Shown one piece after another: positions 44,808 to 62,200 of a stretch of DNA of 64,000 nucleotides. Location: the NCBI GenBank assembly GCA_035771165.1, contig JAWNZC010000265.1:1127001-1191000 (forward strand), written 5' to 3'. Source of the DNA: Paragorgia papillata. Taxonomy: Eukaryota > Cnidaria > Anthozoa > Scleralcyonacea > Coralliidae. The notes beneath the pieces are model-generated. The model did no database searches. It was not told the origin of the DNA and was given only the letters and a program-made list of their open reading frames with translations. The translations under genes and the position numbers were made by a program. The first letter of the stretch is position 1. Every line of letters starts with the position of its first letter.

Positions 44808-44823
44808 TTCTTTTAAATAAAAA

Positions 44824-45579
44824 ATGAGTATACATTATGGTTATGAAGCATGTCAATGTAAACAAAAACAAAAACCGCTGTACAAAACTGTTTTTGACAT
44901 TAACATGTTAAAAGCTGTGAAATCCGGACAAGCCGATAAAGGTGTTAGAGTTGGAAGAGTGCAAGACAATGAATATTCACTTTTTCAAAGTGTGTACAAC
45001 AGAGGACCAATACCTGGATTAGATTTTATTCAAAATACCAGAAAGTGTTTTATGATATTTAAATGTCCGGAAATGGTTACCATTAATGTTTCAGTTTTTA
45101 TCGTGGTACGTGTTATTGGCGATACCAACAATTCTGGAAAATGGGCATACATTATTGGTAACGATAATGGTGGTTACGATAAATTCATTGGATACAAGAC
45201 CGGAACAACAAACCAACTTTCGTATGGAGGGGGATTTCCAACAAAGGAGTACAACTGTACAATTCAAAGTGATGTTAATATTTTTGAAAAACATATAATT
45301 TCTTGTCATTGGTTATTAAGTGGAAGTTGTGTATACATTAATGGAAAGCGAAGCGCGGATTCAGATTTTTATGCAAATCCAAAAACCATTGGTGAAACAT
45401 GTTGCACAATATTTATGAACGATAGGTTTACAGGAACCACAGGACCGTTATCAAAACCTTTTACGGGAGAGATTTACGATATTAAGGTAATTAGCGGATT
45501 TTTAGAAACAAATGATATTGTAAGCATAAACAAAAAAATGATGGAACAAAACAAAATTAACAAAAGTGTTTCCGCTTAA
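44824..45579 (+). CDS. LamG/concanavalin-A-like fold protein (Polinton cargo)
   Basis: 251 residues, first gene inside the left TIR, start preceded by AAATAAAAA. The N-terminus has CQCKQKQK. From residue about 30 the protein looks beta-rich, with DNEYSLFQSVYNRGP, FMIFKCPEMVTI, VYINGKRSADSDF and a terminal FTGEIYDIKVISGFLETNDI. The last (Gly-Glu-Ile-Tyr-Asp-Ile then an acidic-helix end) is the closing strand of LamG/ConA-like lectin sandwiches. Such domains bind glycans or proteins, so a receptor-binding or host-interaction role is an inference. No signal peptide is visible. It is not one of the conserved Polinton core genes. Confidence 0.55.
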   Translation: MSIHYGYEACQCKQKQKPLYKTVFDINMLKAVKSGQADKGVRVGRVQDNEYSLFQSVYNRGPIPGLDFIQNTRKCFMIFKCPEMVTINVSVFIVVRVIGDTNNSGKWAYIIGNDNGGYDKFIGYKTGTTNQLSYGGGFPTKEYNCTIQSDVNIFEKHIISCHWLLSGSCVYINGKRSADSDFYANPKTIGETCCTIFMNDRFTGTTGPLSKPFTGEIYDIKVISGFLETNDIVSINKKMMEQNKINKSVSA

Positions 45580-45645
45580 AGTGGGACACTTTTTTCGACC
45601 ATTTTTTCGACCATTTTTAATTAGTTAAAAAGATATATAATAAAG
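45578..45645 (+). promoter_or_regulatory. Hairpin-containing control repeat, copy 1
   Basis: AAAGTGGGACACTTT (perfect 6-bp stem, GGA loop), then TTTCGACCATT twice, then AAAAAGATATATAATAAAG ending a few bases before the ATG at 45651. Closely similar to 47929-47996 and partly to 58654-58705. Likely promoter or enhancer. Confidence 0.65.
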
Positions 45646-45650
45646 GAATA

Positions 45651-47309
45651 ATGGAACAAAAACGTGAAAAAGAAAGATTAAGAAAAGCTAAACAAAGAAA
45701 AGCTAAAAAACCTATGAAACCAGTACTAACAGCAGAAGAAACAAAAAAAAAGTATGCTGAACAAAGAAAATCAAAAAAACCATCAAAACCGGTACTAACA
45801 GCAGAAGAAACAAAAAAAAAGTATGCTGAACAAAGAAAATCAAAAAAATCTGTGAAACCAGTACTAACAGCAGAAGAAACAAAACAAAAGTATGCTGAAC
45901 AAAGAAAAGCTAAAAAACCTGTGAAGGTAGCCGTTTCTTTAGAGGAAAGACGCAAAACAGCTCAGCTAAAGAAAGCCAAACAAAGACCAGACAAAAAACC
46001 ACCAAAACCTAAAAAGGAACCAAAACCTTTAACTGAACGACAACAACGTGAACAGGAGTGCTTTCGGAAACTCGCTGACAAGTTACCGTCTATTGAAGAT
46101 TCGGGCTTACCAGGAGTGATAAAGCTGTCAATATCAAGAGCTAAACTTCTGGAAACCAAGCCAGGTTATTTTAACAGCGAAGCATCACTATTGTTTAGTC
46201 AGATGTTACACACAATCAAAAAACAACGAGAAAAACCACAAACATTTCCACCAAATTACGATTTAGGCCAACCATTCCTACCAGTAAGGAGTTGTAACTT
46301 TCAAAACTATTGTTTGCATGCCTTTAAAGGTGACTACTGTGAAAGGAAATGTGACCAAAAGTTTTGTGACGAACACAAACCTAGAGACAATACTGATAAC
46401 TGCTTTCACCTAATCAAGGAAGAGGATGGTGACAACCGTTTCTGTACAAACTGTGGATTAGTTTTTGAAGACTGTCCTACAGCACCACGTCACAAGCCAG
46501 TGAGACTTAAGAAAGGTGAAAGGGAAGAGGATAATCCTGACTACTCATCAATTCAAACCAACAGTAAAAGCACTTTTACCACTAATTACAACATTAGGGA
46601 TTGGGTGAGGTGTGGTCAGATTCTAAGCAGAATGGCAGTTAATGAAAACAACAACATAAAAGAAAGACTGTTTTACCTATGGAAAAAGTTTTCACTAAAA
46701 ATGTGTGACAAAAACTATAGCCATGACTGTGTTAAGGAAATGTGGAACAAAGGATGTGTTTCCACAGCAACGTTACCACCTTATCCGTTTGGTGGAAAGA
46801 TATGGATGGATGATGGTTATCTTTTACACAGACTGTCAGACGGCTGCCCATCACTTTTTAACCTTTGGTTAGACTTTACCAAAAAACAGGATAGTACATT
46901 TTCATTACGGTTTTCAATTGAAATGTGGGAAAACTACTCTACACCTACCTGGAACAGGAAGAAACTTATTTACCTTAAATATTTTCGAAACGAGGAAATA
47001 TCACATCACTTTTTCAGCAATGGGTTTACACTTGCTGTGAGCGACAACCACAACTTTAATGCATACGCAAAAGAGTACAAAAAAGGTGCTATTGAAAAAT
47101 ACATAAAAGCCAACAGAAAGGTGTTAAAACAACTGAAACCAATTGTAAGTACAAACTTTGAAAACGAAAAAGAAAGTGAACTTAACGATGAAATTGTTCG
47201 GATTAACGGTATTTGCAAAGAAAAAAAGATAGAGTTATACAACTTTAACATCACTATGGTTGACGAAAGACTTAAGAGAGACTATATTGATCAGCTTGTA
47301 AAAGCATAA
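45651..47309 (+). CDS. Lys-rich repeat / Cys-cluster protein with PriCT_2-like modules
   Basis: 552 residues. Residues 24-92 are three 23-residue tandem repeats of PVLTAEETKKKYAEQRKSKK type, strongly basic and helical. Residues about 214-275 form a Cys/His-rich cluster (CERKCDQKFCDEH, CFHL, FCTNCGLVFEDCP) suited to zinc binding. Around residues 316-365 is DWVRCGQILSRM with LFYLWKKFSLKMCDKNY and VKEMW, the Trp-x3-Gly ... Trp ... Trp spacing of PriCT_2-type primase C-terminal domains. A weaker copy (LFNLWLDFTKK ... IEMWENY) is at about 402-430. The two downstream plus-strand genes share the module. A nucleic-acid-associated role is inferred from charge and fold; no catalytic primase motif is seen. 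Confidence 0.6.
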   Translation: MEQKREKERLRKAKQRKAKKPMKPVLTAEETKKKYAEQRKSKKPSKPVLTAEETKKKYAEQRKSKKSVKPVLTAEETKQKYAEQRKAKKPVKVAVSLEERRKTAQLKKAKQRPDKKPPKPKKEPKPLTERQQREQECFRKLADKLPSIEDSGLPGVIKLSISRAKLLETKPGYFNSEASLLFSQMLHTIKKQREKPQTFPPNYDLGQPFLPVRSCNFQNYCLHAFKGDYCERKCDQKFCDEHKPRDNTDNCFHLIKEEDGDNRFCTNCGLVFEDCPTAPRHKPVRLKKGEREEDNPDYSSIQTNSKSTFTTNYNIRDWVRCGQILSRMAVNENNNIKERLFYLWKKFSLKMCDKNYSHDCVKEMWNKGCVSTATLPPYPFGGKIWMDDGYLLHRLSDGCPSLFNLWLDFTKKQDSTFSLRFSIEMWENYSTPTWNRKKLIYLKYFRNEEISHHFFSNGFTLAVSDNHNFNAYAKEYKKGAIEKYIKANRKVLKQLKPIVSTNFENEKESELNDEIVRINGICKEKKIELYNFNITMVDERLKRDYIDQLVKA

Positions 47310-47355
47310 TTTCTAAAATTTCATATACTTAAAAATATATGAAATTAAACCGTTT

Positions 47356-47904
47356 TTAGAATTTTCCAAACCTTCTTGATCTGAAAGTAATCGTATCGTA
47401 TGGTTTTTCTACGAAGTCATCCCCATCCTCGTTTTCTGAGTCTTCTGACATATAGTTTTCTAATTCGTATACATTGTATGATTTTAACCCATATTTTTCA
47501 GGATGTGCGTTTCTTCTTTGAGTTCCAGTAGGGTTGTACGGAATGATATAAAGTCCACGTTCTTGTTGATAGATTTTTTTTCTGTTGAATTCTTTGAAGA
47601 TGTTTTTGTACAACATATAGTATTTTTTGTTATTCCTTTCGTTTAAAATTGTGACAGTATCGTGACCAATTATATGATCAATAAGCATTTTAAACATATT
47701 TTCTAATGCATCTGAAAGCTGACCACGGTTTTTCTTGCTTTGTACTATTTCGATGAACACGTAGATTTTTTCAAGTTGACCAATTGGAAATATTATGAAA
47801 TTAAAGTTAACTTCAATTTCAAACGTTTTTAATGGTGGCATTTTGTCTTGACAAATTAAACTTTGAAACTTTGAAACTAACTCATTTTTTTTAATGTAAT
47901 TCAT
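47356..47904 (-). CDS. Unrecognised Polinton protein, acidic C-terminus
   Basis: 182 residues from the Met of MNYIKKNELVSKF at 47904. That start is chosen because ACTATAATAAAGGAATA directly precedes it; an in-frame upstream Met exists but falls in the control repeat. Visible features: a hydrophobic strand pair (FEIEVNFNFIIFPIGQLEKI), basic RKKIYQQERG, and an acidic patch SEDSENEDGDDF before a basic FRSRRFGKF tail. No transmembrane or catalytic motif. It is divergent from the gene at 47999, with the control repeat between. Function unknown. Confidence 0.6.
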   Translation of the reverse strand: MNYIKKNELVSKFQSLICQDKMPPLKTFEIEVNFNFIIFPIGQLEKIYVFIEIVQSKKNRGQLSDALENMFKMLIDHIIGHDTVTILNERNNKKYYMLYKNIFKEFNRKKIYQQERGLYIIPYNPTGTQRRNAHPEKYGLKSYNVYELENYMSEDSENEDGDDFVEKPYDTITFRSRRFGKF

Positions 47905-47928
47905 TATTCCTTTATTATAGTACGATTT

Positions 47929-47996
47929 AAAGTGGGACACTTTTTTCGACCATTTTTTCGACCATTTTTAACTAATTAAAAAGATATATAATAAAG
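47929..47996. promoter_or_regulatory. Hairpin-containing control repeat, copy 2 (bidirectional)
   Basis: Same AAAGTGGGACACTTT hairpin, TTTCGACCATT pair and AAAAAGATATATAATAAAG end as 45578-45645. It sits between divergent genes starting at 47904 (-) and 47999 (+), so it could serve both. Confidence 0.65.
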
Positions 47997-47998
47997 AG

Positions 47999-48811
47999 AT
48001 GAACACTTTAAACTTTTACTTATCCCAACTTTCAACAAACCGAGCAGAACCTTATTCCGAATCCTGGTATACAACCGGGAGTGTTATTTGTAACTGTACT
48101 AATGGCACTAAAAAAGGTCTTGAAATTTGGCATCAGTTTTCCCAACGTCATGAAAAATATAACAAAGAACTATGTGATAAAAAATGGCTTCACTTTAAGA
48201 AAAAAGTTGTACTTTACGCTATAAGATCACTAGTGCCAATGATTTACAAAGACGGTGGAACAACCTATAATCCAAGTGAAACCCAATTAGTTTCAGACTT
48301 AGAAGTAAGAAATTTTGTTTGTGAAATTATTATTCCTAAGTTATCGATTCGAAGAATGCGAAATAACAAAGCACTTAACAACCTTTGTTCCGCTGTTTAC
48401 ACCATGTCAGAAGGAAAAGACGAGCATGTTATGGAAAAAATTTGTAAAAGAATTAAAGATAGTGGACTAAGAAACTTTTTTATCTCAACATGGAAACACA
48501 AAAATTTTAGGTTTACCTGCGATATCAACAGTATTATTAGCTGGTACAACAGTGATGAAAAAGAAAAACCAAATCCAAGAGCAACTAATATTAAACCTTA
48601 TGTTAACAACGACCCGCTTTGGTTAGAAAGTACAACCAGATATTTGAAGTCATTTGATGACATTGGTTGTACGCCGAGGTATTTTAAGGTAACTGCTGAA
48701 GAACGAAAAGAACTTAAACCTAAAGTAAAAAAGAAAAAACTTGTAAATGAACTATGTAACGCAGGATGTTATAACATAGTTAATAGTCTTTTAGCTGAAG
48801 GAAAACTATAA
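47999..48811 (+). CDS. PriCT_2-like domain protein
   Basis: 270 residues, start preceded by ATATAATAAAGAG. Residues 22-63 hold the module: W23-x3-G27, G40-x3-W44, then W63 after HEKYNKELCDKK, followed by a basic stretch. This matches the PriCT_2 pattern (primase C-terminal domain 2, found attached to D5-like primase-helicases of large DNA viruses). The rest is helical and basic (RIKDSGLRNFFISTWKHKNF, PKVKKKKLVN) without AEP-primase or helicase motifs. The next gene (48822) is almost nothing but the same module. A DNA-replication accessory role is inferred. Confidence 0.6.
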   Translation: MNTLNFYLSQLSTNRAEPYSESWYTTGSVICNCTNGTKKGLEIWHQFSQRHEKYNKELCDKKWLHFKKKVVLYAIRSLVPMIYKDGGTTYNPSETQLVSDLEVRNFVCEIIIPKLSIRRMRNNKALNNLCSAVYTMSEGKDEHVMEKICKRIKDSGLRNFFISTWKHKNFRFTCDINSIISWYNSDEKEKPNPRATNIKPYVNNDPLWLESTTRYLKSFDDIGCTPRYFKVTAEERKELKPKVKKKKLVNELCNAGCYNIVNSLLAEGKL

Positions 48812-48821
48812 ATAAAGAAAG

Positions 48822-49025
48822 ATGTTAGTTAAAAACAACACCAATGTTGCGAAGTGTGATTTTAGATCTAAAACTTGGTTTGACATAGGCAAACTTATTT
48901 TTAATCTTACAAATGGTAGCAACGAAGGATACAACCTTTGGGTGATGTACAGCAAATACGACCAGAAAAACTTTAACGAATCTTATTGTATTGAATACTG
49001 GGTTTATCTTATGAACAACGCTTAG
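48822..49025 (+). CDS. Stand-alone mini PriCT_2-like protein
   Basis: 67 residues. W19-x3-G23, G36-x3-W40 and W60, almost the exact spacing of the module in the preceding gene (23-27, 40-44, 63). It starts 10 bases after the preceding stop, with AATAAAGAAAG before ATG, so the two are probably co-expressed. No other domain; likely arose by partial duplication. Confidence 0.6.
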   Translation: MLVKNNTNVAKCDFRSKTWFDIGKLIFNLTNGSNEGYNLWVMYSKYDQKNFNESYCIEYWVYLMNNA

Positions 49026-49043
49026 AGTTACTATAATAAAGAG

Positions 49044-49280
49044 ATGAACAACGAATTACAGTACGAAGATCCAGAAGGTTACATAGTTGTTTCAAACCAA
49101 GAACTGTATTGGTTTAGTAATTTAACTGAGCTTTTTGATACATTTGGTGACCGTGTAGAATGGGACCCTGAAAACGAAGTTTATATTATACCAGTTGAAA
49201 ACTTTGGAGTTGATGAAGGGTTAAGTAAGTGGTTGGATGAAGAAAATTTACCAGAATCAACAGCTACTGATGAACTTTAA
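49044..49280 (+). CDS. Small acidic protein
   Basis: 78 residues, strongly acidic (about one residue in four is Asp/Glu), with aromatic pairs (ELYWFSNLTELF, RVEWDPENEVYI). Start preceded by ACTATAATAAAGAG. No recognised domain. It ends the short plus-strand operon-like run begun at 47999. A DNA-mimic or binding-partner role is possible but unsupported. Confidence 0.55.
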   Translation: MNNELQYEDPEGYIVVSNQELYWFSNLTELFDTFGDRVEWDPENEVYIIPVENFGVDEGLSKWLDEENLPESTATDEL

Positions 49281-49324
49281 ACAAAAAAAAAAATTCCTAT
49301 TTTTAAAAATAGGAATTTAAAAGT
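49281..49324. terminator. Convergent-gene hairpin
   Basis: AATTCCTATTTTT and AAAAATAGGAATT form a near-perfect stem in the gap between the plus gene ending at 49280 and the minus gene ending at 49325, followed by A/T runs. A plausible 3'-end or transcription-blocking structure. Confidence 0.5.
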
Positions 49325-49726
49325 TTAAACCAGCTTGTGTAACAACCAACCACCACCAGCACCTGCTATTCCAACAGCCATAATTTGGTATTTTTTCATT
49401 TCAGACGATGGTTGGTAATAGTCTTCTAGTTTTGGTGGTGGAATATTTTTTCTGTTCCGAACTTGTTGTAATTCTGCGAGTGCTTTGTTGGTGTCTTTAA
49501 TATCACCTTTTGCATTGTAAAGTTCTTCTTGAAGTTTTTTTTCTTTTTTTCTTGCTTCAGCCTCTTGTTCACGGTAAGCTTCGTTAGCTTTTTGTTGTTC
49601 TTCCATTGCATGGTCATGTCTTTTTATTTCTTCTTGGTAACCTTTTTTGTTAAACGTTGAGAATAGATAACCAGCTCCTGCGAAGGCAACTGCATTGAAT
49701 AGTCCTCCTGCTATCATTGATGCCAT
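49325..49726 (-). CDS. Membrane protein with central coiled coil
   Basis: 133 residues. An N-terminal hydrophobic segment (residues 3-24, AGGLFNAVAFAGAGYLFSTF) is followed by a charged coiled coil of about 60 residues (EEQQKANEAYREQEAEARKK ... KALAELQQV). A Pro-rich spacer and a second hydrophobic segment at the C-terminus (IMAVGIAGAGGGWLLHKL) complete it. Start preceded by AAATAA directly at ATG. First (3'-most) of the minus-strand virion block 49325-52959; small membrane proteins of this sort accompany Polinton capsid genes. Virion-membrane or core role inferred. Confidence 0.6.
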   Translation of the reverse strand: MASMIAGGLFNAVAFAGAGYLFSTFNKKGYQEEIKRHDHAMEEQQKANEAYREQEAEARKKEKKLQEELYNAKGDIKDTNKALAELQQVRNRKNIPPPKLEDYYQPSSEMKKYQIMAVGIAGAGGGWLLHKLV

Positions 49727-49740
49727 TTATTTATGTGTTA

Positions 49741-49962
49741 CTATGCCTTAAGTGGGATATAGCCCGCGGTTTGTCCTTTTTTTACCAAGAAGCTACCAAC
49801 TGCGACAGCGACAGCTAACTTTGCGGCATCCTTTAGACTGGCCGGTGCGGCTAAAGGCTGTCCAACCAGTTTTTTAGAAACCATACTTACAGCTACGGCT
49901 CCAGCAGTAACTAGTGCAGCTTCGTATAAATCTTGTATTACTTCACGTTTTGTTTCACTCAT
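49741..49962 (-). CDS. Small hydrophobic virion-type protein
   Basis: 73 residues with two hydrophobic helices (AALVTAGAVAVSMVSKKLVG and KLAVAVAVGSFLVKKGQ) around a Pro-Leu-Ala-Ala-Pro turn. Start preceded by ACTATAATAA fused to the ATG. Similar tiny hydrophobic proteins are encoded next to capsid genes in adintovirus/Polinton elements. Role unproven. Confidence 0.6.
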   Translation of the reverse strand: MSETKREVIQDLYEAALVTAGAVAVSMVSKKLVGQPLAAPASLKDAAKLAVAVAVGSFLVKKGQTAGYIPLKA

Positions 49963-50077
49963 TTATTATAGTAGGTTTTTACAACGTAATGAAAAGTTCA
50001 GATGTATCGTTAGGTAATGATCCTGATTTTTGTTGCATGTTACACTTGCTTTTTCAAAACCATAGTTTAGTGCCATT

Positions 50078-50716
50078 TTATTTTATCGTTATTTCTAACA
50101 ATATGTCACCAATCTCATGGCTTACCGAAAACTTTAGTTCGTTATAAATCCCATCGTTTAGTTTGGTTTCACTGTTGATGTTGTCGTAGTGTGTAACGGT
50201 ACCCTTTAATGACTGGGTGGTTGTGATTGGAAGAATAGCAATAGATCCATCCCGCTGACCTTGGAATGATGTTTCGTTTTTGTTAACAGCACTACACTTA
50301 ATGTTAATATATTTTAAACCAAGGTTGACATTAACAGATGTGTCAGAAGTCCAACCAGTGTCTTTTGGTATGATCATTCGTGTTTTAGAAAATCCAAGAA
50401 TTGGTGCCAGTTTTTCTAATGAAAGAATTTCTGTTGGTGTAATTTTAATTTTTTGTGAATAATGGACTAGCTCAGCTTTTGCGTTTACTTCCGCTAATTT
50501 GTCAACAATCATGTTGGCAGTCCAATAACCAGGTTTGAACCATAATTTTTTACTACCATTTGCGATAAAAATAAAATCTGTGATGTTATTAAAATCCCAA
50601 AACACACTTGCACACTTTACAGTCATTGATTTGTTTTCAATGACTAGTGGTTCATCAAATTTAACAATGGTTTCCATTTCATCGTTCTTTTCCATGAAAA
50701 TTCTTAAAAGACTCAT
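50078..50716 (-). CDS. Probable minor capsid (penton) protein
   Basis: 212 residues, predicted mostly beta. Hallmarks: FKPGYWTANMIVDKLAEVN (helix between strands), LAPILGFSKTRMIIP (the L-G-F motif), GLKYINIKCSAVNKNETSFQ, SIAILPITT, and the closing strands ELKFSVSHEIGDILLEI. This order is that of the single-jelly-roll penton proteins of Polintons and adintoviruses, which form the five-fold vertices. The length is normal to slightly short. It lies next to the ATPase and major capsid genes on the same strand, the usual morphogenesis cluster. Start: first Met directly follows AAAATAA. Confidence 0.72.
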   Translation of the reverse strand: MSLLRIFMEKNDEMETIVKFDEPLVIENKSMTVKCASVFWDFNNITDFIFIANGSKKLWFKPGYWTANMIVDKLAEVNAKAELVHYSQKIKITPTEILSLEKLAPILGFSKTRMIIPKDTGWTSDTSVNVNLGLKYINIKCSAVNKNETSFQGQRDGSIAILPITTTQSLKGTVTHYDNINSETKLNDGIYNELKFSVSHEIGDILLEITIK

Positions 50717-50768
50717 TTATTTTAAAAAAAAAATCATATGCTAACAAAAACATATGATTTTTTACTTT

Positions 50769-51353
50769 TTATACTATTTCATGATTGTATGGATGAACCA
50801 AATTAATTTCTAATCTACTATATTTTTTTTCTTTCAACGTTTCTTTTATATTTTTTTCTTCTTCTCTGTCAACGTCTAAATAGTCATCTAGAATAACCTG
50901 CATATCCTTTTTGTTTGGATTGTAGAAAGTCACCAGCTTGGATATGTTTTCTCTGTACGGTTTTGCAATACTTGTTAGTTGTTGTGTAATAACTATTGTG
51001 CTAATAACCATATGTCTTGCACCGAATCCAAGTTTCACCAACTCACTGGTTCGGTTTTTCACCAGCTGACCAGCAGCACAGTCATCAAGTATGATTAGCG
51101 ATGGACTTCCTTTACAATACTCCACAACAAATTTTAAAAGATCATCTGTTTGATCCTGATTGCAGGGTATGGTGAAAAAGTTTGGATCATTCAAATGTTT
51201 CCAGTTTAGATAGGTTTTGTTCCACTCAAAAGTTGGACAGATTAAAAATATGTTTTCAAACTGTTTATAGCATTTTTCTTCTAGCATTTCAAGAAGGTAG
51301 TGTGTTTTTCCACATCCCGTCATTCCAACTATTATCATGTTAAATGGTTTCAT
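50769..51353 (-). CDS. A32/FtsK-HerA-like genome-packaging ATPase
   Basis: 194 residues. Walker A GMTGCGKT at residues 10-17, Walker B SLIILDD at 85-91, and a Gln sensor STIVITQQL at about 118-126 define the FtsK/HerA superfamily packaging ATPases shared by Polintons, virophages and large DNA viruses. It would pump DNA into the capsid using ATP. Size is near the short end for the family, but all motifs are present. Start directly preceded by TAAATAA. It lies between penton and major capsid genes, as in other Polintons. Confidence 0.92.
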   Translation of the reverse strand: MKPFNMIIVGMTGCGKTHYLLEMLEEKCYKQFENIFLICPTFEWNKTYLNWKHLNDPNFFTIPCNQDQTDDLLKFVVEYCKGSPSLIILDDCAAGQLVKNRTSELVKLGFGARHMVISTIVITQQLTSIAKPYRENISKLVTFYNPNKKDMQVILDDYLDVDREEEKNIKETLKEKKYSRLEINLVHPYNHEIV

Positions 51354-51374
51354 TTATTTACGACGTTTCACTTT

Positions 51375-52583
51375 TTAGTAGGTAACACCTCGGAAGTCAC
51401 CTGCTTGCACCTTTAGGACACCATCTGAAAGTATGAAAATATGACAGGTGAGGTCTACTGTTGTTGCTTTTTTTGTGATTTCCAGCATAATACCAGATTG
51501 TGTTGACAAAAGTTTTGTTCCGTGACCGTATAGTTCGTTGTCATCAATAGCTCTAAGATCGACTATCAAGGCAAACTTGTCACCGGTGAAAAAGCTGGTT
51601 GCGGTTACTGCACTGGTGTCTTGCTTGAAAAGTCTTTCAGCCTCTTCAAATAATCTTCTTTTTACTATTCCCTGTGAGTAGATGCTATTGGGTATGCCTT
51701 CAATGGTTACCTTCACATTTTCGATGTTTGGAAAAACATACTCTTCACTTCCACCACGGGTTTTCTTTGTAAAAAGCATAACAACTGCTTTCATGCTTTT
51801 TCGTGGGAGGTTGATGGTTTCGTTGATAAGTGTGGTTGTTTTAGCCCAGTTAACTGTTTTGAAAAGGGTGGCATGCTCAAAACTAAGTGATCTTCCAGCG
51901 TTGTAGCCACTTTCCACCTCACGCATAAGTTCAGGATTGGTGATGGTTTCAAATTCTAGTTCCATGTTTTCTAGGCTGTAACCATCCACTGTCTGATTGT
52001 TTTGTGCCTTCATAATTTCACTAGCTTGTGGAAGGGTAATGATGTATTGTAGGTCGTTGCTCATGTTGTAAGGAGCATACAACCCATGGTCCATAAGAAT
52101 TTTTCCTAGCTGGATTCTTTGCTTAGGACCGTAAACTGATGCGTACGCATCAGATGAGGCATCGTCAGACTTTGAGATAACCTTACGTTGGTTTTCCGTA
52201 GCGATACCATCTTCCAACATGTTGGCACGAACGTCACGGTTTAACCACAGGTCTTCATAAGTTCTAAGAACACTTTCACCTGTGTTGTCGTAAATAATTT
52301 CACCTGCAAATTTAACTTTCAGCTGCTTTTGAAGTTGTTTTGCGAGGTTGTTATTGAACCACGATTTGGTGTTTGCATTTTTGAAGTCGAAAACTAGGTA
52401 CATTTTGTCGGGGACAAGGGTTGTTCCAGGTTTAAGTTTTGGAATTTGAATATAAATTTCTTCTCCTGGATTGGCTTTGTTAGGATTAAATGTTGTAACG
52501 TGTCTTGTTCGTTCACCAGTTATTTCGCTTTTTTGTAAACGTTTATAACCTGGTTTTAACATAGTTTGTCGTTCCTTATTCAT
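51375..52583 (-). CDS. Major capsid protein (double jelly roll, hexon-like)
   Basis: 402 residues. Alternating beta segments include EEIYIQIPKLKPGTTLVPD, MYLVFDFKNANTKSWFNNNL, KFAGEIIYDNTGESVLRTYE, LMDHGLYAPYNMSNDLQYII and SLENMELEFETITNPEL. The GLYAPYNMSNDLQYIITLP and ENMELEFETI signatures are those of Polinton/adintovirus hexons, which pack as pseudo-hexameric trimers. It is shorter than many Polinton major capsids, suggesting short surface loops. Start follows ACTATAATAA. Largest gene of the minus-strand virion block. Confidence 0.82.
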   Translation of the reverse strand: MNKERQTMLKPGYKRLQKSEITGERTRHVTTFNPNKANPGEEIYIQIPKLKPGTTLVPDKMYLVFDFKNANTKSWFNNNLAKQLQKQLKVKFAGEIIYDNTGESVLRTYEDLWLNRDVRANMLEDGIATENQRKVISKSDDASSDAYASVYGPKQRIQLGKILMDHGLYAPYNMSNDLQYIITLPQASEIMKAQNNQTVDGYSLENMELEFETITNPELMREVESGYNAGRSLSFEHATLFKTVNWAKTTTLINETINLPRKSMKAVVMLFTKKTRGGSEEYVFPNIENVKVTIEGIPNSIYSQGIVKRRLFEEAERLFKQDTSAVTATSFFTGDKFALIVDLRAIDDNELYGHGTKLLSTQSGIMLEITKKATTVDLTCHIFILSDGVLKVQAGDFRGVTY

Positions 52584-52614
52584 TTATTATAGTAGAATTT
52601 TTTGGTATAAAAAA

Positions 52615-52959: not shown

Positions 52960-52986
52960 TTATTATGACGGAATTATTACATTTGC

Positions 52987-53151: not shown

Positions 53152-53173
53152 TGCCAAAAAACATACAAAATAA

Positions 53174-55152: not shown

Positions 55153-55170
55153 TTTATTTATAAATAAAAA
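55153..55170. promoter_or_regulatory. Palindromic bidirectional start element
   Basis: TTTATTTATAAATAAA (palindrome) fills the 18-base gap between divergent start codons at 55152 (-) and 55171 (+). Each gene therefore sees AATAAA just before its ATG from the same bases. Confidence 0.7.
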
Positions 55171-56133
55171 ATGACTACCCTAACTTTACTTGACCTTGAG
55201 TTAAGAAATATATATTACAACCCTGTTACCGGTTACCAAAGTGCGGAAAAGCTATACCAAAAAGCGGTTGAAGAAAATGTAAAAGGAGTTACAAGAAAGT
55301 TAGTAAAGGAGTGGCTATCTTCACAAAGTACGTACACACTACACAAACCGCTAAGGAAACCACGTAAAACGCAAAGGACTTTTGTTAAAAATTTAGCCGA
55401 TCAGCTTCAGATGGACTTAGTGGATATGGCTAAACTTAGTTCTGTAAACAAAAGATTTAACTGGATATTAACAGGAGTTGAAATTTTAAGTAGGTTCGCT
55501 TTTACCGTTCCTGTACATAGAAAAAATACAGAAAGTATGGTTGATGGTGTTGGTAAAATGTTAAAGGAATTTACACTGCGCTTCAAAAAGTATCCAGAGG
55601 TTGTTCAGTTTGATAATGGTAATGAATTTTATAATGTTGGGGTAAAAACCCTTTTGAAATCTCATGACATAGAGTATTTTTCAACACTTTCAGAACGTAA
55701 AGCAGCTATTGTTGAAAGATTCAACAGAACCTTAAAAACCAGAATGTGGAAATATTTTACCGCTGAACAAACTAAAACTTGGATTAACGTTTTAGGTAAG
55801 TTTACCAAAAGTTATAACAACACATTTCACTCAACTATTAAGAGAAAACCTAATAGCGTTAATTTTAATAACCAGGATGAGGTATTTCTAACTTTATACG
55901 GTTTACCACCGACAAAATTTCCAACACCCAAATTTAAGGTTGGTGACCATGTAAGAATATACAAATACAAAAAGAACTTCGCAAAGGGGTATGATCCTAA
56001 TTTTACAAGTGAAGTTTTTAAAATATCGGCTGTGTTTCGCGGTGATCCGGTGATGTACAACATTGAAGACAGCTCAGATGAAAATGTTATTGGTAAGTTT
56101 TACGATGAAGAGTTGGTTCGAGTTACACAATAA
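55171..56133 (+). CDS. Retroviral-type (DDE) integrase
   Basis: 320 residues. The N-terminal helical domain (YYNPVTGYQSAEKLYQKAVE, VKEWLSSQSTYTLHK) is typical of Polinton integrases. The rve core has catalytic D82 (QMDLVDM), D148 (VVQFDNGNEF) and E182 (AAIVERFNRTLK), so D-D-34-E spacing. HSTIKRKPNSV follows, and an SH3-like C-terminal domain (KFKVGDHVRIYKYKKNF) is present. All catalytic residues are present, so it could be active. It would join element ends to target DNA, giving the 6-bp duplication seen at 44564 and 63281. Confidence 0.95.
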   Translation: MTTLTLLDLELRNIYYNPVTGYQSAEKLYQKAVEENVKGVTRKLVKEWLSSQSTYTLHKPLRKPRKTQRTFVKNLADQLQMDLVDMAKLSSVNKRFNWILTGVEILSRFAFTVPVHRKNTESMVDGVGKMLKEFTLRFKKYPEVVQFDNGNEFYNVGVKTLLKSHDIEYFSTLSERKAAIVERFNRTLKTRMWKYFTAEQTKTWINVLGKFTKSYNNTFHSTIKRKPNSVNFNNQDEVFLTLYGLPPTKFPTPKFKVGDHVRIYKYKKNFAKGYDPNFTSEVFKISAVFRGDPVMYNIEDSSDENVIGKFYDEELVRVTQ

Positions 56134-56138
56134 ATAAA

Positions 56139-57431
56139 ATGGAAGGAATTGAATTTGACACTTTTAACGATAACACCCCGGAAATGCGGGGTGAAGAAGA
56201 AACAAGCTTCATAGACGTTGACAATGATGACGATGACTACGATGAAAACATCGATCTGGAAGGAAGACCAGATCTAGATCCGTTTGACCCAAACGCGTGG
56301 GTAAAAGCAAGAGACGTAAATACAACTGAAGAAGAAAACGCTGAAGAAAACACCTTGAAAAACAAACTAAAACGGTGGGAAACCGCTGAAAAACGGAGAA
56401 TCACAAAAACACGAAAAACTTTTTTTCGTAATAATTTTAATCAAGAAATAGTGATGAAAGATGGACCCGCCTCGAGAGATCTAATCAACAAAAGTTTAAT
56501 CTCAATAAGTGAAAAAACTGGTAAGGTAAACGGAATTCTTTTTGACGGAGAAAGAGTTGTTGTTCAAAAAGGAAAAGGTTTTGTATTAAGCAAAAGTGAA
56601 AATGTGAAAGATGCTGTTCAAAAATACACCCATCTTATGGAAAAGGCACGTTACGAACATAACAAAACCGCAAACGGTTTTATTGAGGAAATTGTTGGTA
56701 GTCTTCCTGGGACACCAAGTGTTAATGGAATTAGAGCAAATGTTATTGATAACATCCAAGCTGAAATAGAAATAGGTAACAATTCGATTGACAAAACACA
56801 ACTTACAAATGAGGAACTAAGAGAACTTGGTGGGATACTAGCTGTAGATAACATTGAAAATTTAGACGCTGTTGACATAGCTGTTAAGTACTGGGATGAC
56901 AAAGCAAAAGCTGAAGTTGATAACCGGAAAAAAGCTGTTTACAAAGACATTTCAGATGTGGCTAAGTTAAAAGCTGAAGAACTCAGACTAAAAAATAACT
57001 TAAAACCAACTAGCGAAGAAATCTCAGATAGGATAGCTAACGATGAAATAACAAAATTTCAAAAATTTAAAAATTTTGCTAAAGAAAACTTTGTATCTCT
57101 GTCAACATTAGCTATAACTATTGCTGGTGTTATAACAACAGTAGTTATATTTGGTAAAAAAAACTTAACTAGTGCTGCAAAAGCCGCTGCACAAGTGGCT
57201 GCTAACTTAGCAAAAGCATCACTAAAAATAGCAAAAGCACAATACAAAATACTGAAAGCTGCCCTACCCGTAATACTTAAGTTGTTTAACATGTTAACCA
57301 AATTATTGTTATTTGGTTCAAAAGGATTGCTATGGTTGTCAAAACATATGTGGATACTAGCTATTGCTTTTGCCTATATTCTTTACAGAAACGTAAAAGC
57401 ACTTTTACCAAAAAAAGATAGTAATAAATGA
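56139..57431 (+). CDS. Large acidic-to-hydrophobic membrane protein
   Basis: 430 residues, five bases after the integrase stop, with AATAAA before ATG. The N-terminal 80 residues are highly acidic (DVDNDDDDYDENIDLEG). A basic segment follows (KRWETAEKRRITKTRKTFF), then a helical middle. The C-terminal third has hydrophobic helices STLAITIAGVITTVVIFG (about 320-337) and WLSKHMWILAIAFAYILYR (about 400-418), flanking an Ala/Lys-rich amphipathic stretch (AAKAAAQVAANLAKASLK). It may be a multi-pass or membrane-active virion protein. Not recognised. Confidence 0.6.
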   Translation: MEGIEFDTFNDNTPEMRGEEETSFIDVDNDDDDYDENIDLEGRPDLDPFDPNAWVKARDVNTTEEENAEENTLKNKLKRWETAEKRRITKTRKTFFRNNFNQEIVMKDGPASRDLINKSLISISEKTGKVNGILFDGERVVVQKGKGFVLSKSENVKDAVQKYTHLMEKARYEHNKTANGFIEEIVGSLPGTPSVNGIRANVIDNIQAEIEIGNNSIDKTQLTNEELRELGGILAVDNIENLDAVDIAVKYWDDKAKAEVDNRKKAVYKDISDVAKLKAEELRLKNNLKPTSEEISDRIANDEITKFQKFKNFAKENFVSLSTLAITIAGVITTVVIFGKKNLTSAAKAAAQVAANLAKASLKIAKAQYKILKAALPVILKLFNMLTKLLLFGSKGLLWLSKHMWILAIAFAYILYRNVKALLPKKDSNK

Positions 57432-57958
57432 ACACAGAAGAACTTAACTTTGAAAACATACAACCAGACGTACAACACGAAAACAACAATCTTAGAGATG
57501 AGCTAATCCGCTTGTCTGCCGCAAAAGAAATTAAATACTCAGAAAAATATATCAAAAAGGCAAGTCAATCCGCATTAGAAAAAATCAAGGAAAACCATCA
57601 ACGCGATCAAATGGATAAGGTCAACTCACAACTAACTGAAAGTCTTATTTCAAAGTTTTCAACACTAATGGAACAGCTGAATATGGTTGAAAACAACGGT
57701 AACCTAGACAAAGAACTATCAGAAAACAAACTTTTTCATGACGATGTTAAAACAATGGTTATGAAAATATCTCCCTACATTCCTATGATTGGTTTGTTTT
57801 CAGGAGGTTTAATACTAGCAAAACATATGTGGGATAAACCTGAAAACAAAGTAGATAAAGAAACACAAGATGAAGTACAAAGTAATCAGGATTCTGGTGC
57901 AAGCAGCAGTAGTAGCGATGCTGTTAATTCCAGTAACAGTGGAGTTAATACTAATTAA
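57428..57958 (+). CDS. Acidic helical protein with one membrane segment
   Basis: 176 residues, ATG overlapping the previous stop (ATGA), suggesting coupled expression. Helical charged N-terminus, hydrophobic segment ISPYIPMIGLFSGGLILAK (about residues 116-134), and a Ser/Asn-rich disordered tail (SSSSDAVNSSNSGVN). Organisation mirrors the C-terminal half of its upstream neighbour. Function unknown. Confidence 0.6.
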   Translation: MNTEELNFENIQPDVQHENNNLRDELIRLSAAKEIKYSEKYIKKASQSALEKIKENHQRDQMDKVNSQLTESLISKFSTLMEQLNMVENNGNLDKELSENKLFHDDVKTMVMKISPYIPMIGLFSGGLILAKHMWDKPENKVDKETQDEVQSNQDSGASSSSSDAVNSSNSGVNTN

Positions 57959-57993
57959 AACATTACTATTTTAATTTCCCATTTTTAAATAAA

Positions 57994-58275
57994 ATGGGAA
58001 ACTCAACAAGTAAATCAAAAGAAAAACTCAACAAAAACCACAACACACGAAAAGGGTTTCAGCTTGGTATCAGTTTCGGTAAAGATACAGAAACTATAGA
58101 AGGAAACGTACAGATGGGTTGGACAAACAAAACAGTTAAGAACTACTCTCGTATACCTGGGTATACCACTTGTCAACACTGTCTGGAATCTCAGAACACA
58201 TCTCCCGAACCAAATCGTCAATCACCATCAGCTCCCCATCAAACAGAGCCTGATCAAAGTGAACCCCTCGCATGA
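57994..58275 (+). CDS. Predicted N-myristoylated small protein
   Basis: 93 residues beginning MGNSTSKSKEK: Gly2, Ser6 and basic residues fit the N-myristoylation consensus, a common membrane-targeting signal in viral matrix-type proteins. The middle is QLGISFGKDTE; the tail is Pro/Ser/Gln-rich and contains CQHC. Start after AAATAAA. The last 140 bases overlap the 3' end of the minus-strand gene at 58136, so both coding sequences constrain each other. Membrane association is inferred from the motif. Confidence 0.6.
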   Translation: MGNSTSKSKEKLNKNHNTRKGFQLGISFGKDTETIEGNVQMGWTNKTVKNYSRIPGYTTCQHCLESQNTSPEPNRQSPSAPHQTEPDQSEPLA

Positions 58276-58636
58276 ACTCTCTAAGGTTGTTCAACACCTT
58301 TCTATAATTTTTAAAGGCAAACCTGTTTCTGTGCACCGCTTTTGACAAATTAGCTTTTCGCATATAACCAGCTATCAAAAGACCTAGTCCAGACATCGCA
58401 CCTAAAATCAACGGATTAAGTGTAACACAGCCTAAAACAGTTCCACCAGTGCCACCAGATATTAAAACCACTTTTAATGCCATAAAAATGTTGTCTTTGT
58501 ACTTGCTTTTTTTATACATTCTTTCATAACATTTTGTTAATCTGTGATAGTGTACATACATTTCCTTAAATCTCGTCATTTGTTCTTCAGTTAAATCTTT
58601 TGAGATATGATTGAAGTTAAATATTTTACAAACCAT
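58136..58636 (-). CDS. Two-helix membrane protein
   Basis: 166 residues. The N-terminal helical part has Tyr/Lys-rich HRLTKCYERMYKKSKYKD. A hydrophobic double segment follows (ALKVVLISGGTGGTVLGCVT and LILGAMSGLGLLIAGYM, residues about 54-93), then a soluble C-terminus (FKNYRKVLNNLREFMRG). Start directly after ACTATAATAA. Overlaps the gene at 57994-58275 tail to tail. Unknown function; likely membrane-associated virion protein. Confidence 0.6.
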   Translation of the reverse strand: MVCKIFNFNHISKDLTEEQMTRFKEMYVHYHRLTKCYERMYKKSKYKDNIFMALKVVLISGGTGGTVLGCVTLNPLILGAMSGLGLLIAGYMRKANLSKAVHRNRFAFKNYRKVLNNLREFMRGVHFDQALFDGELMVIDDLVREMCSEIPDSVDKWYTQVYESSS

Positions 58637-58653
58637 TTATTATAGTACAATTT

Positions 58654-58830
58654 AAAGAGGGACACTTTTTTGACCGTTTTTTCAACCATTTTTTCAACCA
58701 TTTTAGGGGGACAACTTTTCACTTTTCTGTATAATAAAGAAAAGTACTAAAGTTAACTTTAAGTTAAAGTTAAAGTTAACTTCACCTTAAAGTGGGACAA
58801 CCTGCCGGAAACCTACTATAATAAATAACA
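58654..58830. promoter_or_regulatory. Control region with hairpin repeat copy 3 and GTTAAC inverted repeats
   Basis: AAAGAGGGACACTTTTTTGAC with three (C/A)GACC / CAACCATTTT-type units (58654-58705) is a diverged copy of 45578-45645. 58751-58782 has nested AGTTAACTTTAAGTTAAAGT inverted repeats, and AAAGTGGGACAA recurs at 58789. It lies between divergent genes (58636 - and 58831 +). Confidence 0.6.
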
Positions 58831-59148
58831 ATGTATACAGTAAGACAACTAAGACAAATGGGTAAAGAAAGAGGAATCAAATACTTTTCAAAAATGAATA
58901 GTAAAACCCTATGTGAAAAACTTGGTCTTACACTGGTAAGAAACCAAGCATTTGACACCCATAACAAAAACAAAATTGGTATTCCAGTACCAATCACAGT
59001 TGAAAACATGGAAAGTGGTGAAATTACAAAATTTCCAAGCATATACAAGGCATCAAAACATCTTAACACAAATCCAAATTACATTTACAAATTTCTAAAA
59101 GAAAAAACTGTACTAATAAAGGGGTGTCTGTACTCTATCACAAAATAG
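58831..59148 (+). CDS. SAP/Rho_N-like plus NUMOD1-like DNA-binding protein
   Basis: 105 residues. Residues 1-35 (YTVRQLRQMGKERGIKYFSK, then LCEKLGL) fit the SAP/Rho-N helix-turn-helix that binds DNA or RNA. Residues about 65-103 (KFPSIYKASKHLNTNPNYIY, then KFLKEKTVLIKGCLYSI) fit NUMOD1, the small helix-turn-helix DNA-binding module normally attached to homing endonucleases. No nuclease domain is attached. It stands just upstream of the polymerase gene; both starts follow ACTATAATAAA. Probably an element-specific DNA-binding or transcription factor. Confidence 0.68.
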   Translation: MYTVRQLRQMGKERGIKYFSKMNSKTLCEKLGLTLVRNQAFDTHNKNKIGIPVPITVENMESGEITKFPSIYKASKHLNTNPNYIYKFLKEKTVLIKGCLYSITK

Positions 59149-59257
59149 CCAGTTTTTATTCCATACTTCCTTTTCTCAAAAATTTCATATATTCTAAGTA
59201 TATGAAATTAAATCAAATTTTTTTTTTGTTAAATCTTACTATAATAAAGGGATAAAA

Positions 59258-62200
59258 ATGTGGAATACTAATATTAACGAATATATTAAAAAACTTGAAC
59301 TTAAAAACAAACGTCAAGTTCAAAAACAAGAAGAAAAACATCAACGAGAAAAAACAAGACTTCAGCGACAAATTCAACGACAACAGCAAGAAGAAAAACG
59401 TCAACAAGAAAAAGTCAAGCGTCAACAAGAAAAAGTTAAACAAAAATTACAGCAAAAAATGAACGCCGTCCTGGAAAAAGCCAAAAAACAATGGCACAAG
59501 CAAGAACTCAAGGCCCTAAAAAAGCAACAACACAAGGAAACCATCAAGTGGCGAAAAGAAATCAAACAGGAGTCCAAACGTCAATTCAACGTCATCGAAG
59601 GAAAGAAATGGAAAGGATCCAAAAAACTCGCTAATATTCGTGAAAAGCTTAGTAGTAAGCTGTGGAATAGTGCTAACGAAAAAGCAAAAATGTTGAATGA
59701 ATTTAACAACAACAACTTTTTGCCAACAATTGTTTCAAGAGCAATACGTAAAAACACAGAAAAATGGGAAATTAATGGTGATGGAGTTAACGATCCAAGA
59801 GCATTCGTCTATGGTGTTTCAGAAAACGTCGAAAATTTAATTAACAACACCACAAGTGTTGGTAAAAAGGTTAACACAGTCCTTGTTTGTGTGTTAAAAG
59901 ATGCTAGCAACAACGAAGAACTGGTCTACTTTAGAAGTAGAACCCACTCAATTATTTCAAAAGAAGATGCCAGTAAAGAATACAGAAAAATGTGTGGTAA
60001 AATGTTAGAAAGTCTGTCGGTGTTTCAAAGAAGAGGGTCTGGATGGAGGTTACTTTATGTTGATGGTTTAGAAATTTTCATAACAAAATACAAACCAGTA
60101 AACGGTAAAAGCTACAAACCTTTACCAAAATTTCTTAGCACCAAAAAGGCTATCATCAACATAGAAAACGACGGTAACCAGTGCTTCAAATACGCGGTAA
60201 CAAGAGCGCTAAACCCTGTGGAAAAGGATGGTGGTAGAGTAACCAAAGTTCTAAAACTCCAAGCAGAAGAACTTAACTGGAGTGATGTGGTGTTTCCTAT
60301 GGAGTTAAAAAATATAACCAAGTTTGAAATAGTAAACGAAATCTGTATCAACGTTTTTGGATTTGAAGATGAAATTAAAAAGGTGTTTCCGTTAAGAGTT
60401 TCTAAAAACTATTACAATGAGAAAATCAACCTGTTTTTATACAATGAACATTACAGTGTTGTCAGTGACATAGGCAAACTTCTTTCTAGCCAACTTAGTA
60501 AGAAAAAAGCTAGTAAGCATATCTGTTTAAGATGTCTGAACGCGTTTGGAACAGAAGAATTGCTAACAAAACACTCAGAAGTTTGTAACACACATGACAT
60601 CCAAATCCATGAATATCCTAAAGAAGGATCGGAAACATATTTTAAGCAGTATCAAAAAACAACCGATGTTCCGTTTGCCATTTACGCCGATTTCGAAAGC
60701 TTTATCAGACCTATTGATACGGTACAGAAAAACAACGATGAAAGTCATACCACTGCTTACCAGCACCATCAACCATCAGGATATTGCTATACAGTCAAAT
60801 GTATTGATGAAAGTATATATCAAGACAAAACTGTGTTGTATACGATGGAAAATGAAGACGAGGATATAGGTAAAAAATTTGTTGAAAGTGTTGAACATGA
60901 GATGAAAGAAATCTATGAAATCACAAAACAAATTAAACCTATTCAAATGAGTAAAACACAAGAAAAAGAATTTCGGTGTGAAAAGAACTGCTACGTTTGT
61001 AGTGAGGTACTGAACGCCGATCGAGTTCGGGATCACTGCCATCTAACAGGAAAGTACCGTGGTGCTGCTCACAGCAAGTGCAACCTGAAAATGAAAAACC
61101 CAAAATTTTTACCTGTTTTGTTTCACAACCTGGAAGGTTACGATGCACATCTGTTCATCAAAAGTCTAGGCCTTTCAGAAGGAAAAATTAACTGCATACC
61201 TAAGACTGATGAAAAGTACATCAGTTTTAGTAAGGAAGTGGTTATGGAAACGATAACAAAAAATGAAAAAACAAGAGATGTTAAGTATGAACTAAGGTTT
61301 CTGGATTCACTAAAGTTTACTCTAAGTTCGTTAGATGGATTAGTCAAAAACTTAGGTTCCGACCAGTTCAAATCTGTCGAACAAGGATTTAACGGTTATA
61401 GTGAAACCCAAGTTAACCTACTTAAGAAAAAGGGGGTTTTTCCCTATGAGTTCATGTCCGGATTTGAAAAACTGAGTTATCCTCGGTTACCTAACAAATC
61501 TGAGTTCTTTTCCAAGCTAAACAACACACACATTTCAGACGAGGATTACAAGCATGCCCAAAATGTTTGGACTGCCTTTAACTGTCAAACTATGCGAGAT
61601 TATCACAATCTGTACTTAAAAACTGACGTGTTGTTACTCGCTGACGTCATGGAAGGTTTCCGTAAAGTTTGTAAGAAAAACTATGGACTGGATCCGTTGT
61701 GGTACTACACCAGTCCAGGTTTGGCATGGGACGCAGCTCTCAAGCTAACAAAAGTTAAACTAGAACTAATAACCGATCCGGATATGTACCTTATGATTGA
61801 AAAAGGAATCCGTGGTGGTATTAGTACAATTACAAAAAGGTATGCCAAAGCTAACAATAAGTACATGCCAAACTTCAAACTACATGAACTAAATGTTTTT
61901 CTAGCATATTTAGATGCTAACAACCTGTACGGTTGGGCCATGAGTAAGAAACTACCTGTTAAAGATTTCCGGTGGTTGGAACAGCAACAGCTTGAAACAT
62001 GGGAATCTGTACCGTGTATTCTAGAAGTAGATTTAGAATATCCACAAGAATTACACGACTTACATAACGAATACCCACTAGCTGCGGAAAGACTAAGTGT
62101 TGACGGTGTAAATAAGTTAATTCCTAACTTAATGAATAAGGAAAAGTACGCCATACATCACGAAGCACTAAAGCAATGCTTAGAACTAGGACTAAAGTTA

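Follow-up and report, generated by a model that had tools for sequence, protein, structure and literature searches.

How an animal-genome Polinton is transcribed, and whether it needs a helper virus, are the questions raised by a locus of the coral Paragorgia papillata. The DNA analysed here, called the window, is a stretch of 64,000 nt (contig JAWNZC010000265.1, assembly GCA_035771165.1, positions 1,127,001-1,191,000, forward strand), and all coordinates below refer to it. The transcription signals of the Polinton that it contains seem to be of viral style, unlike those of ordinary animal genes, in a kind of punctuation code with a candidate initiator at every gene start and hairpins at many isolated gene ends.

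The element and its ends

The window holds an intact Polinton/Maverick element of 18,711 bp (44570..63280), with ends AGTAGT...ACTACT and a 6-bp target duplication, AACCAG. Its left terminal inverted repeat (TIR; 44570..44807, 238 nt) is 100% complementary to the right one (63043..63280), in which the PolB ORF terminates. TIRs, a 6-bp target duplication and AGT-type ends are hallmarks of this class, and the termini agree with those of Polintons in passages of PMC8097293. Further hallmarks found are a packaging ATPase together with a double jelly-roll major capsid protein, and an rve integrase, detected by Pfam scan (PF00665, E 2.3e-7) at 31.5 bits, just under the cut-off of 32.6; the integrase ORF also matches phage transposase families (best E 3.3e-7). 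Homology further indicates a type B DNA polymerase, presumably protein-primed as is typical of the class. The Pfam scan of the PolB ORF itself gave Endonuclease_7 alone, and 120 homologues were listed of 7991 scored, all with E <= 0.001 and 52-71% identity; one of these 120 (P0190, 60% identity) carries PF03175, which we take to be DNA polymerase B family 2. The relatives of PolB and of the capsid protein are Polinton-like proteins from animals and metagenomes. Pfam scans of the element ORFs gave no match to a maturation protease or a penton, nor to any RNA polymerase family among the 21 ORFs, and no capping enzyme was recognised in the element.

A common word at the gene starts

An earlier note on this DNA had placed AATAAA within about 14 nt upstream of all 21 start codons. 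The word is indeed present in 21/21 ORFs, beginning 5-15 nt 5' of the ATG, the limit being off by one for a single gene (59258, at -15). All 21 starts are the first ATGs of their ORFs. In nine genes the word lies at -5 and overlaps the ATG, as the note had said of many starts.

The hexamer precedes the plus-strand ORFs 44824-45579 (44816..44821), 48822-49025 (48811..48816) and 55171-56133 (55163..55168), the last of which encodes the rve integrase and is the divergent partner of minus-strand ORF 55152-53686, headed by AATAAAATG (55153..55158). AATAAAATG is also found before ORF 57994-58275 (+; 57988..57993). On the plus strand, AATAAA is part of GATATATAATAAA at ORFs 45651-47309 (45639..45644) and 47999-48811 (47990..47995; PriCT_2), and ORF 56139-57431 is preceded by two overlapping copies (AATAAATAAAATG, 56129..56138). 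The overlapping form AATAAATG occurs on the minus strand at ORFs 49726-49325 (49726..49731), 50716-50078 (50716..50721), 51353-50769 (51353..51358; Pox_A32-type packaging ATPase) and 52959-52615 (52959..52964, within TCATAATAAA), and on the plus strand at ORFs 53174-53689 (53169..53174; Pox_A22-type resolvase) and 57428-57958 (57423..57428). The longest version of the word is a 12-nt extended form, TACTATAATAAA, present at seven genes. On the minus strand these are ORF 47904-47356 (AATAAA at 47911..47916, extended form at 47911-47922) and, with AATAAATG, ORFs 49962-49741 (49962..49967), 52583-51375 (52583..52588; major capsid protein) and 58636-58136 (58636..58641); on the plus strand they are ORFs 49044-49280 (49035..49040), 58831-59148 (58820..58825) and 59258-63124 (59243..59248; PolB). 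The note's count of seven longer forms was exact: ACTATAATAAA occurs at seven starts, seven times in the element and 0 times in the rest of the window. Early and late gene classes defined by motif were considered and set aside, since the TACTATAATAAA set combines PolB and the capsid protein with small ORFs and does not divide cleanly by function.

Shuffling the 100 nt upstream of each gene gave the word by chance in a mean of 5.6% of cases, for a joint probability of about 1e-28. When every hexamer in the 40 nt upstream of each start was counted (on an ORF set without 57994 and with an extra 60-aa TIR ORF), AATAAA ranked first, at 20/21 against a shuffle mean of 3.7. The word is far less frequent before other ATGs, where it was seen in 6/592 cases within the element and in 22/1532 in positions 1-44500; among intergenic-only 18-nt windows away from starts, 20/2183 carry it. 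Three of the six non-start ATGs lie just within genes 55152(-) and 49726(-) (55149, 55142 and 49717), two are inside ORFs (50583+ and 49617-), and one (50076-) heads a 36-aa ORF, 50076-49966(-), with AAATAAAATG at 50077..50082. This ORF is probably a 22nd gene, an example of how the code lets small genes be predicted. For ORFs of at least 100 aa, the word is present at 17/18 in the element versus 0/18 outside it, the lone exception in the element being 61705-62154(-), antisense within PolB.

A Kozak-like translation-start context, or a by-product of AT composition, might account for such a word, since AT-rich organisms often have A-rich start contexts and the non-coding DNA here is 71% AT. We reject the Kozak-like form because the distance to the ATG varies (5-15 nt) and T occupies -3 in 9/21 genes. 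The rate of about 6% per gene in shuffles, the lack of the word at all 18 large ORFs outside the element and the 12-nt form at seven starts speak against both versions, which we consider very improbable. The word marks starts on either strand and on the two sides of divergent pairs. This, with its floating position and its recurrence in some relatives (see below), argues for the single initiator-like code that the note had proposed and likened to the late promoters of poxviruses or to virophage promoters.

Gene ends and 3' hairpins

The note had also suggested that the hexamer might double as a poly(A) signal for the gene upstream. Counting the proposed 22nd gene, all 13 of the 13 tandem junctions carry AATAAA, at -8 to +95 relative to the upstream stop, as would be expected if the words served chiefly to polyadenylate transcripts of the genes before them; the next gene, with its start word, follows at each of these junctions and accounts for the count. 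AATAAA was found within 100 nt of 0/9 convergent or terminal gene ends, although the variant ATTAAA occurs at two of the nine (47309 and 63124), and we therefore reject polyadenylation as the main role. On the two sides of four divergent pairs, and ahead of the first gene (44824), the word likewise stands where no same-strand gene lies just upstream. We consider a poly(A) signal as the driver of the pattern very improbable.

Perfect AT-rich hairpins, overlooked in the earlier note, lie 3' of the stops of 8/21 genes, with stems of 11-13 bp and loops of 4-10. Two are placed between convergent stops, at 47317..47346 (stem 11; stops 47309(+)/47356(-)) and at 49291..49318 (stem 12; stops 49280(+)/49325(-)). 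The others are found at 50728..50763 (-; stem 13), 3' of the ATPase stop 50769; at 57975..58001 (+; stem 11), 3' of stop 57958 and including the AATAAAATG of the next gene; at 59181..59209 (+; stem 11), 3' of stop 59148; and at 63159..63189 (+; stem 12), in the right TIR 3' of the PolB stop 63124, with a copy in the left TIR (44661-44691). The shuffle control for hairpins comprised 300 shuffles. Long hairpins also occur in the window where a terminator makes no sense (44661 and 58750), and two overlapping convergent gene pairs have neither AATAAA nor a hairpin.

Recurrence among relatives

The motif count covered 12/17 PolB loci (L129-L132 and L134 excluded); L138 is the same contig as L137, and L139 the same as L121. 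These relatives are mostly short contigs that had been placed in bacterial or archaeal genome bins. ORFs were discarded as fragments when their plus-strand start fell between 60 nt upstream of the PolB match and a point 30 nt before that match ends, a rule that also removed the L126 PolB start, which carries AATAAA; the L124 match has just 8 nt upstream and hence no expected value.

AATAAA was found at 5/6 starts in L122 and 6/12 in L137, with no enrichment in L121 (2/12, expected 1.0), L127 (0/5) or L133 (0/3), which rules out a universal Polinton code. L121 is TATATA-rich instead (10/14 upstream stretches, shuffle mean 3.9). Hairpins follow stops in L122, L123, L128 and once in L137; none with a stem of at least 10 was seen after stops in L121, L124-L127, L133, L135 or L136. 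Misplaced hairpins lie inside an L122 ORF (3517-3554, stem 12), at divergent starts in L126 (880-914) and L137 (8334-8360), where an L128 ORF has its 5' end (3215-3250), and 193 nt 3' of the PolB stop in L137. Each signal is shared by some of the PolB relatives and missing from others, so the code is lineage-specific.

Comparison with known transcription systems

Poxvirus intermediate and late promoters have a TAAAT(G/A) initiator (PMC5294985). Similarly, the AT-rich element has TAAATG at 9/21 start codons and TAAA at 21/21, and its mRNAs would have next to no leader if transcription starts at the word. Poxviruses, unlike the element, encode their polymerase and factors; here, seven genes have the word in its longer form TACTATAATAAA, and genes for replication, capsid and integrase all use the word, without a visible early/late division.

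The virophages Sputnik and mavirus and the EMALEs share promoter and terminator signals with their giant virus, according to passages of PMC6428243 and PMC8547959. Like them, the element is small and capsid-bearing, with an AT-rich promoter-like motif and 3' hairpins, and its motif differs among Polinton lineages as motifs do among the EMALE types in those passages. In contrast, the motif is not TCTA, and the PolB and capsid relatives are Polinton-like.

For the yeast cytoplasmic virus-like elements pGKL, passages of PMC6211774 describe a TAAAN initiator and stem loops at transcript ends with no common 3' sequence motif, a combination resembling the TAAA-type start word and 3' stem loops seen here. 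By the same passages, pGKL are cytoplasmic and supply an RNA polymerase and a capping enzyme of their own, neither of which was recognised in the Polinton.

AT-rich palindromes right after stops and common to convergent genes also recall mimivirus and Pithovirus. As quoted in PMC8557863, the mimivirus rule is a stem >= 13 with a loop <= 5, and the Pithovirus limits are a stem >= 10 and a loop <= 10. All eight window hairpins fit the latter; none satisfies both mimivirus limits, and hairpins follow just 8/21 genes. Our literature search returned no report of such a start and hairpin code for Polintons.

A candidate transcription code

The best explanation, on which our judgement is evenly poised, is a start-site promoter combined with hairpin 3' ends, read by a giant-virus-type polymerase supplied in trans. 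The AATAAA-centred word (TACTATAATAAA at its longest, with a TAAATG end in nine genes) would be the initiator at every gene, so that each could be transcribed separately, from a site a few nt 5' of the AUG. Transcription may initiate within the AAA run, and slippage there might add a short poly(A) leader; this would make the mRNA translatable although a leader is otherwise missing. Transcripts with no close downstream gene would end mostly at the AT-rich hairpins. As with virophages, both signals would most likely be read by a nucleocytoplasmic-virus-type RNA polymerase that a large virus provides during co-infection, a preference that we infer because no RNA polymerase gene was recognised in the element. 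Against this explanation stand the relatives without AATAAA enrichment or 3' hairpins, the hairpins after no more than 8/21 genes, those in misplaced positions, and dimensions short of the mimivirus limits.

With the same promoter role, the word could instead be an unusual AT-rich initiator that the host's RNA polymerase II recognises in the nucleus; the hairpins would then be terminators or RNA-stability elements, and a helper virus would be unnecessary. Host transcription is the default for an element that a clean target duplication marks as integrated and in which no RNA polymerase family was matched, and, according to passages of PMC10945749, a giant virus is dispensable for the replication of some PLVs. 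A host TATA box sits 25-30 nt 5' of the start site (passages of PMC5294985), and AATAAA acting as one would put every transcript start inside the ORF. In the nucleus, AATAAA at the 13 tandem junctions would also invite cleavage close to where the following gene begins, and the rarity of poly(A) signals at convergent and terminal ends (AATAAA 0/9, though ATTAAA 2/9) tells against host polymerase as well; we consider this reading rather unlikely.

A bolder version of trans-supplied transcription, which we offer tentatively, is that this animal-genome Polinton is a functional virophage, silent in the nucleus, its code being read solely by the cytoplasmic polymerase of a large DNA virus infecting the same animal. 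The motif would then be the fingerprint of the helper, and the element possibly an inducible antiviral. The motif (TACTATAATAAA or TATAATAAATG) could serve as a sequence tag for finding the matching large virus. A scan of viral contigs with the pattern ACTATAATAAATGA returned at least 120 stretches and was uninformative, the word being too AT-rich. Single-protein scans of viral contigs with the capsid protein, PolB and integrase, a capsid alignment against viral and genome contigs and a capsid search of a phage collection found no relatives; PolB gave one weak match in the phage collection, to an endonuclease VII gene.

ORF 45651 was considered as a motif-binding factor on account of a zinc-ribbon-like stretch noticed by eye (CTNCGLV), and was dropped with no support from any search: Pfam gave nothing below 0.01 (one chance match at 0.97), there was no PDB relative of note, no homologue was found, and a single-sequence model of residues 111-552 had a pLDDT of 34. 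A further upstream element, TTAAAGWGGGACA, lies at 45576..45588 (+), with more copies at 47927, 58652 and 58787, all in plus orientation.

Probable start signal of the Polinton genes

The hexamer AATAAA starts 5 to 15 nt upstream of the first ATG in all 21 ORFs of the Polinton, confirming, with this range, the claim of the earlier note that it lies within about 14 nt of every start. It is found at -5 in nine ORFs, at -6, -8, -9, -11 and -12 in two each, and at -10 and -15 in one each. The longer word ACTATAATAAA, also reported in that note for seven starts, was found at these seven and nowhere else in the window; the 12-mer TACTATAATAAA has seven exact copies and one further, mismatched copy at 17949, and TAAATG occurs at 9/21 starts. 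The element contains 31 copies of AATAAA, 22 of which sit at the 21 ORF starts. The assigned starts are supported by an in-frame TAA at most 12 nt ahead of the ATG in 13 of the 21 genes. A 36-aa ORF (50076-49966, minus strand), preceded by AAATAAAATG, which ends at 50076, occupies a 115-nt gap and terminates within the motif of the following gene; we propose it as a 22nd gene.

In dinucleotide shuffles of the 100 nt upstream of each gene, AATAAA was expected at a mean of 5.6% per gene, giving a joint chance probability of approximately 1e-28 for all 21 genes. At other ATGs, used as a control, the word was far rarer than at the 21/21 starts, preceding 6 of 592 inside the element and 22 of 1532 at window positions 1-44500. 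Among ORFs of at least 100 aa it stands at the start of 17/18 inside the element versus 0/18 outside, and intergenic 18-nt windows away from starts contained it in 20 of 2183 cases.

Several known signals were considered. A Kozak context would imply a fixed distance and a preference for a purine at -3, but the distance is variable and T occupies -3 at 9/21 starts. A classical TATA box, with its 25-30 nt spacing to the start site, would put every start inside its ORF. The earlier note's suggestion that the hexamer doubles as poly(A) signal of the upstream gene is not supported as its main role. AATAAA does lie near the upstream stop at 13/13 tandem junctions (22 genes counted), because it is the start word of the following gene; at convergent or terminal ends, where poly(A) signals would be most needed, it occurs within 100 nt in 0/9 cases. 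The variant ATTAAA is present at two of these nine ends (47309 and 63124), both beside hairpins.

Hairpins at gene ends

A 3' hairpin system, absent from the earlier note, forms a second signal beside the start word. Non-coding DNA makes up 1,501 bp of the element and wholly contains seven of its eight perfect hairpins (stem of at least 11 bp, loop of 4-10 nt); the eighth (57975-58001) lies 30% within the next ORF. No hairpin in coding DNA has a stem longer than 10 bp. The terminal inverted repeat (TIR) hairpin, present twice, was counted once, and six of the resulting seven are located at most 80 nt downstream of stops, serving eight of the 21 genes with stems of 11-13 bp. Two of the six lie between convergent stops (47309/47356 and 49280/49325). 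The observed stem length was reached in 0/300 shuffles for seven of the eight genes (P = 0.007 for the eighth).

Such hairpins follow 8 of the 11 genes that have at least 30 nt of room before another gene or the end of the element, and none of the 10 genes that are packed or overlap. The exceptions among the roomy genes are 50716(-), whose downstream gap contains the proposed 22nd gene, 44824, with only a 7-bp stem in a 72-nt gap, and 52959(-), with a weak 8-bp hairpin overlapping its own stop. RNA folding z-scores were -2.4 to -4.8 for the six post-stop hairpins (seven foldings, one hairpin being folded on both strands) and -1.9 for the weak one. Two convergent gene pairs overlap, and the ends of their four genes have neither AATAAA nor a hairpin. 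A 3' role does not suit two of the hairpins, at 44661 (the copy in the left TIR) and at 58750-58782 (in a divergent region).

Both signals in PolB relatives

PolB alignment yielded 17 related loci, two of them IMG/VR contigs and the other 15 contigs assigned to MAGs of bacteria or archaea. Twelve loci were used for motif counts (ORFs of at least 70 aa, 60 aa for locus L137), and AATAAA lies within 16 nt of the start in 19/60 of their ORFs, versus about 3.5 expected. By locus, the counts were 5/6 in L122, 6/12 in L137, 2/4 in L125, 2/12 in L121, 1/3 each in L124 and L128, 1/5 each in L126 and L136, 0/5 in L127, 0/3 in L133 and 0/1 each in L123 and L135, so the word is common to part of this PolB family and absent in the rest. 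Longer start words match in L137 (TATATAATAAATG) and L122 (TAGTATAAATAAAATG), and that of L125, TATATATAATAAAGAATG, may be compared with GATATATAATAAAGAGATG at window position 47999. Seven PolB ORFs are uninterrupted and have their start in view (window, L121, L124, L125, L126, L127 and L137); AATAAA precedes five of them, the exceptions being L121 and L127. In L121, an IMG/VR Polinton, TATATA rather than AATAAA precedes the starts (10/14 upstream stretches, shuffle mean 3.9), resembling the TATATA late motif reported for pacmanvirus and ASFV (PMC11788076).

Hairpin support is thinner in the relatives than in the window. Hairpins with stems of 11-15 lie downstream of stops in L122, L123 and L128 (in L128 between convergent stops 1969/1995) and once in L137, there overlapping the next start; none with a stem of at least 10 follows a stop in L121, L124-L127, L133, L135 or L136. 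Other long hairpins in the relatives lie away from stops, inside an ORF (L122, 3517-3554), at divergent starts (L122, 4775-4807; L126, 880-914; L137, 8334-8360), at the 5' end of an ORF (L128, 3215-3250) and 193 nt past the PolB stop of L137.

Possible reading of the signals

The shared start position of the word, its statistics and its recurrence in relatives favour the single promoter-like code put forward in the earlier note. AATAAA would act as a start-site initiator, with transcription probably starting in or next to its AAA, and the hairpins would make the transcript 3' ends. In poxvirus late genes, which lack a 5' leader, TAAAT(G/A) overlaps the start site (PMC5294985); yeast virus-like elements have a TAAAN initiator, at which slippage produces 5' poly(A) leaders, and stem loops at their 3' ends (PMC6211774). 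Medusavirus lacks 3' hairpins, and its AATAAA-like upstream motif shows no preference for intergenic DNA (PMC8557863). Late promoters and termination signals are common to Mimivirus/CroV and Sputnik/mavirus (PMC6428243), and the promoter motif varies between EMALE types, which was read there as reflecting different giant viruses (PMC8547959). According to a later study, some but not all Sputnik genes are preceded by helper promoter motifs (PMC11998528), which counts against a simple shared-promoter model.

No RNA polymerase gene was recognised in the element; given both signals, a large-virus-type RNA polymerase supplied in trans, which would read the two together, is the simplest account. Reading of the element by the host RNA polymerase II is less likely but a serious alternative. 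In the open-licence literature searched, as far as its text was available, we found no description of a Polinton promoter motif or of 3' hairpins; the main text of PMC10120064 does not mention promoter, motif, upstream, transcription or hairpin, and the term promoter does not occur in PMC12220804.

Other features in and near the element

TTAAAGWGGGACA occurs four times in one orientation (45576, 47927, 58652 and 58787), near ORFs 45651, 47904/47999 and 58636/58831, followed at three of the four copies by CRACCATTTTT repeats; it is possibly an upstream control element for a subset of genes. Three 58-nt copies with 55-nt spacing (GCTGTATAGCTAGCTATTTTG...) at 52985-53152, separating the divergently oriented ORFs 52959(-) and 53174(+), may represent an origin or control repeat. 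Three 27-nt repeats (53764-53844) near the 3' end of ORF 55152(-) encode the repeated peptide IPKKDVTHL. The last 82 nt of the PolB ORF (63043-63124) fall within the right terminal repeat, so that the left repeat contains a copy of the PolB C-terminus. Outside the element, ORF 43811-44590, which the Polinton directly adjoins, is similar by eye to ORF 27943-28998(-).
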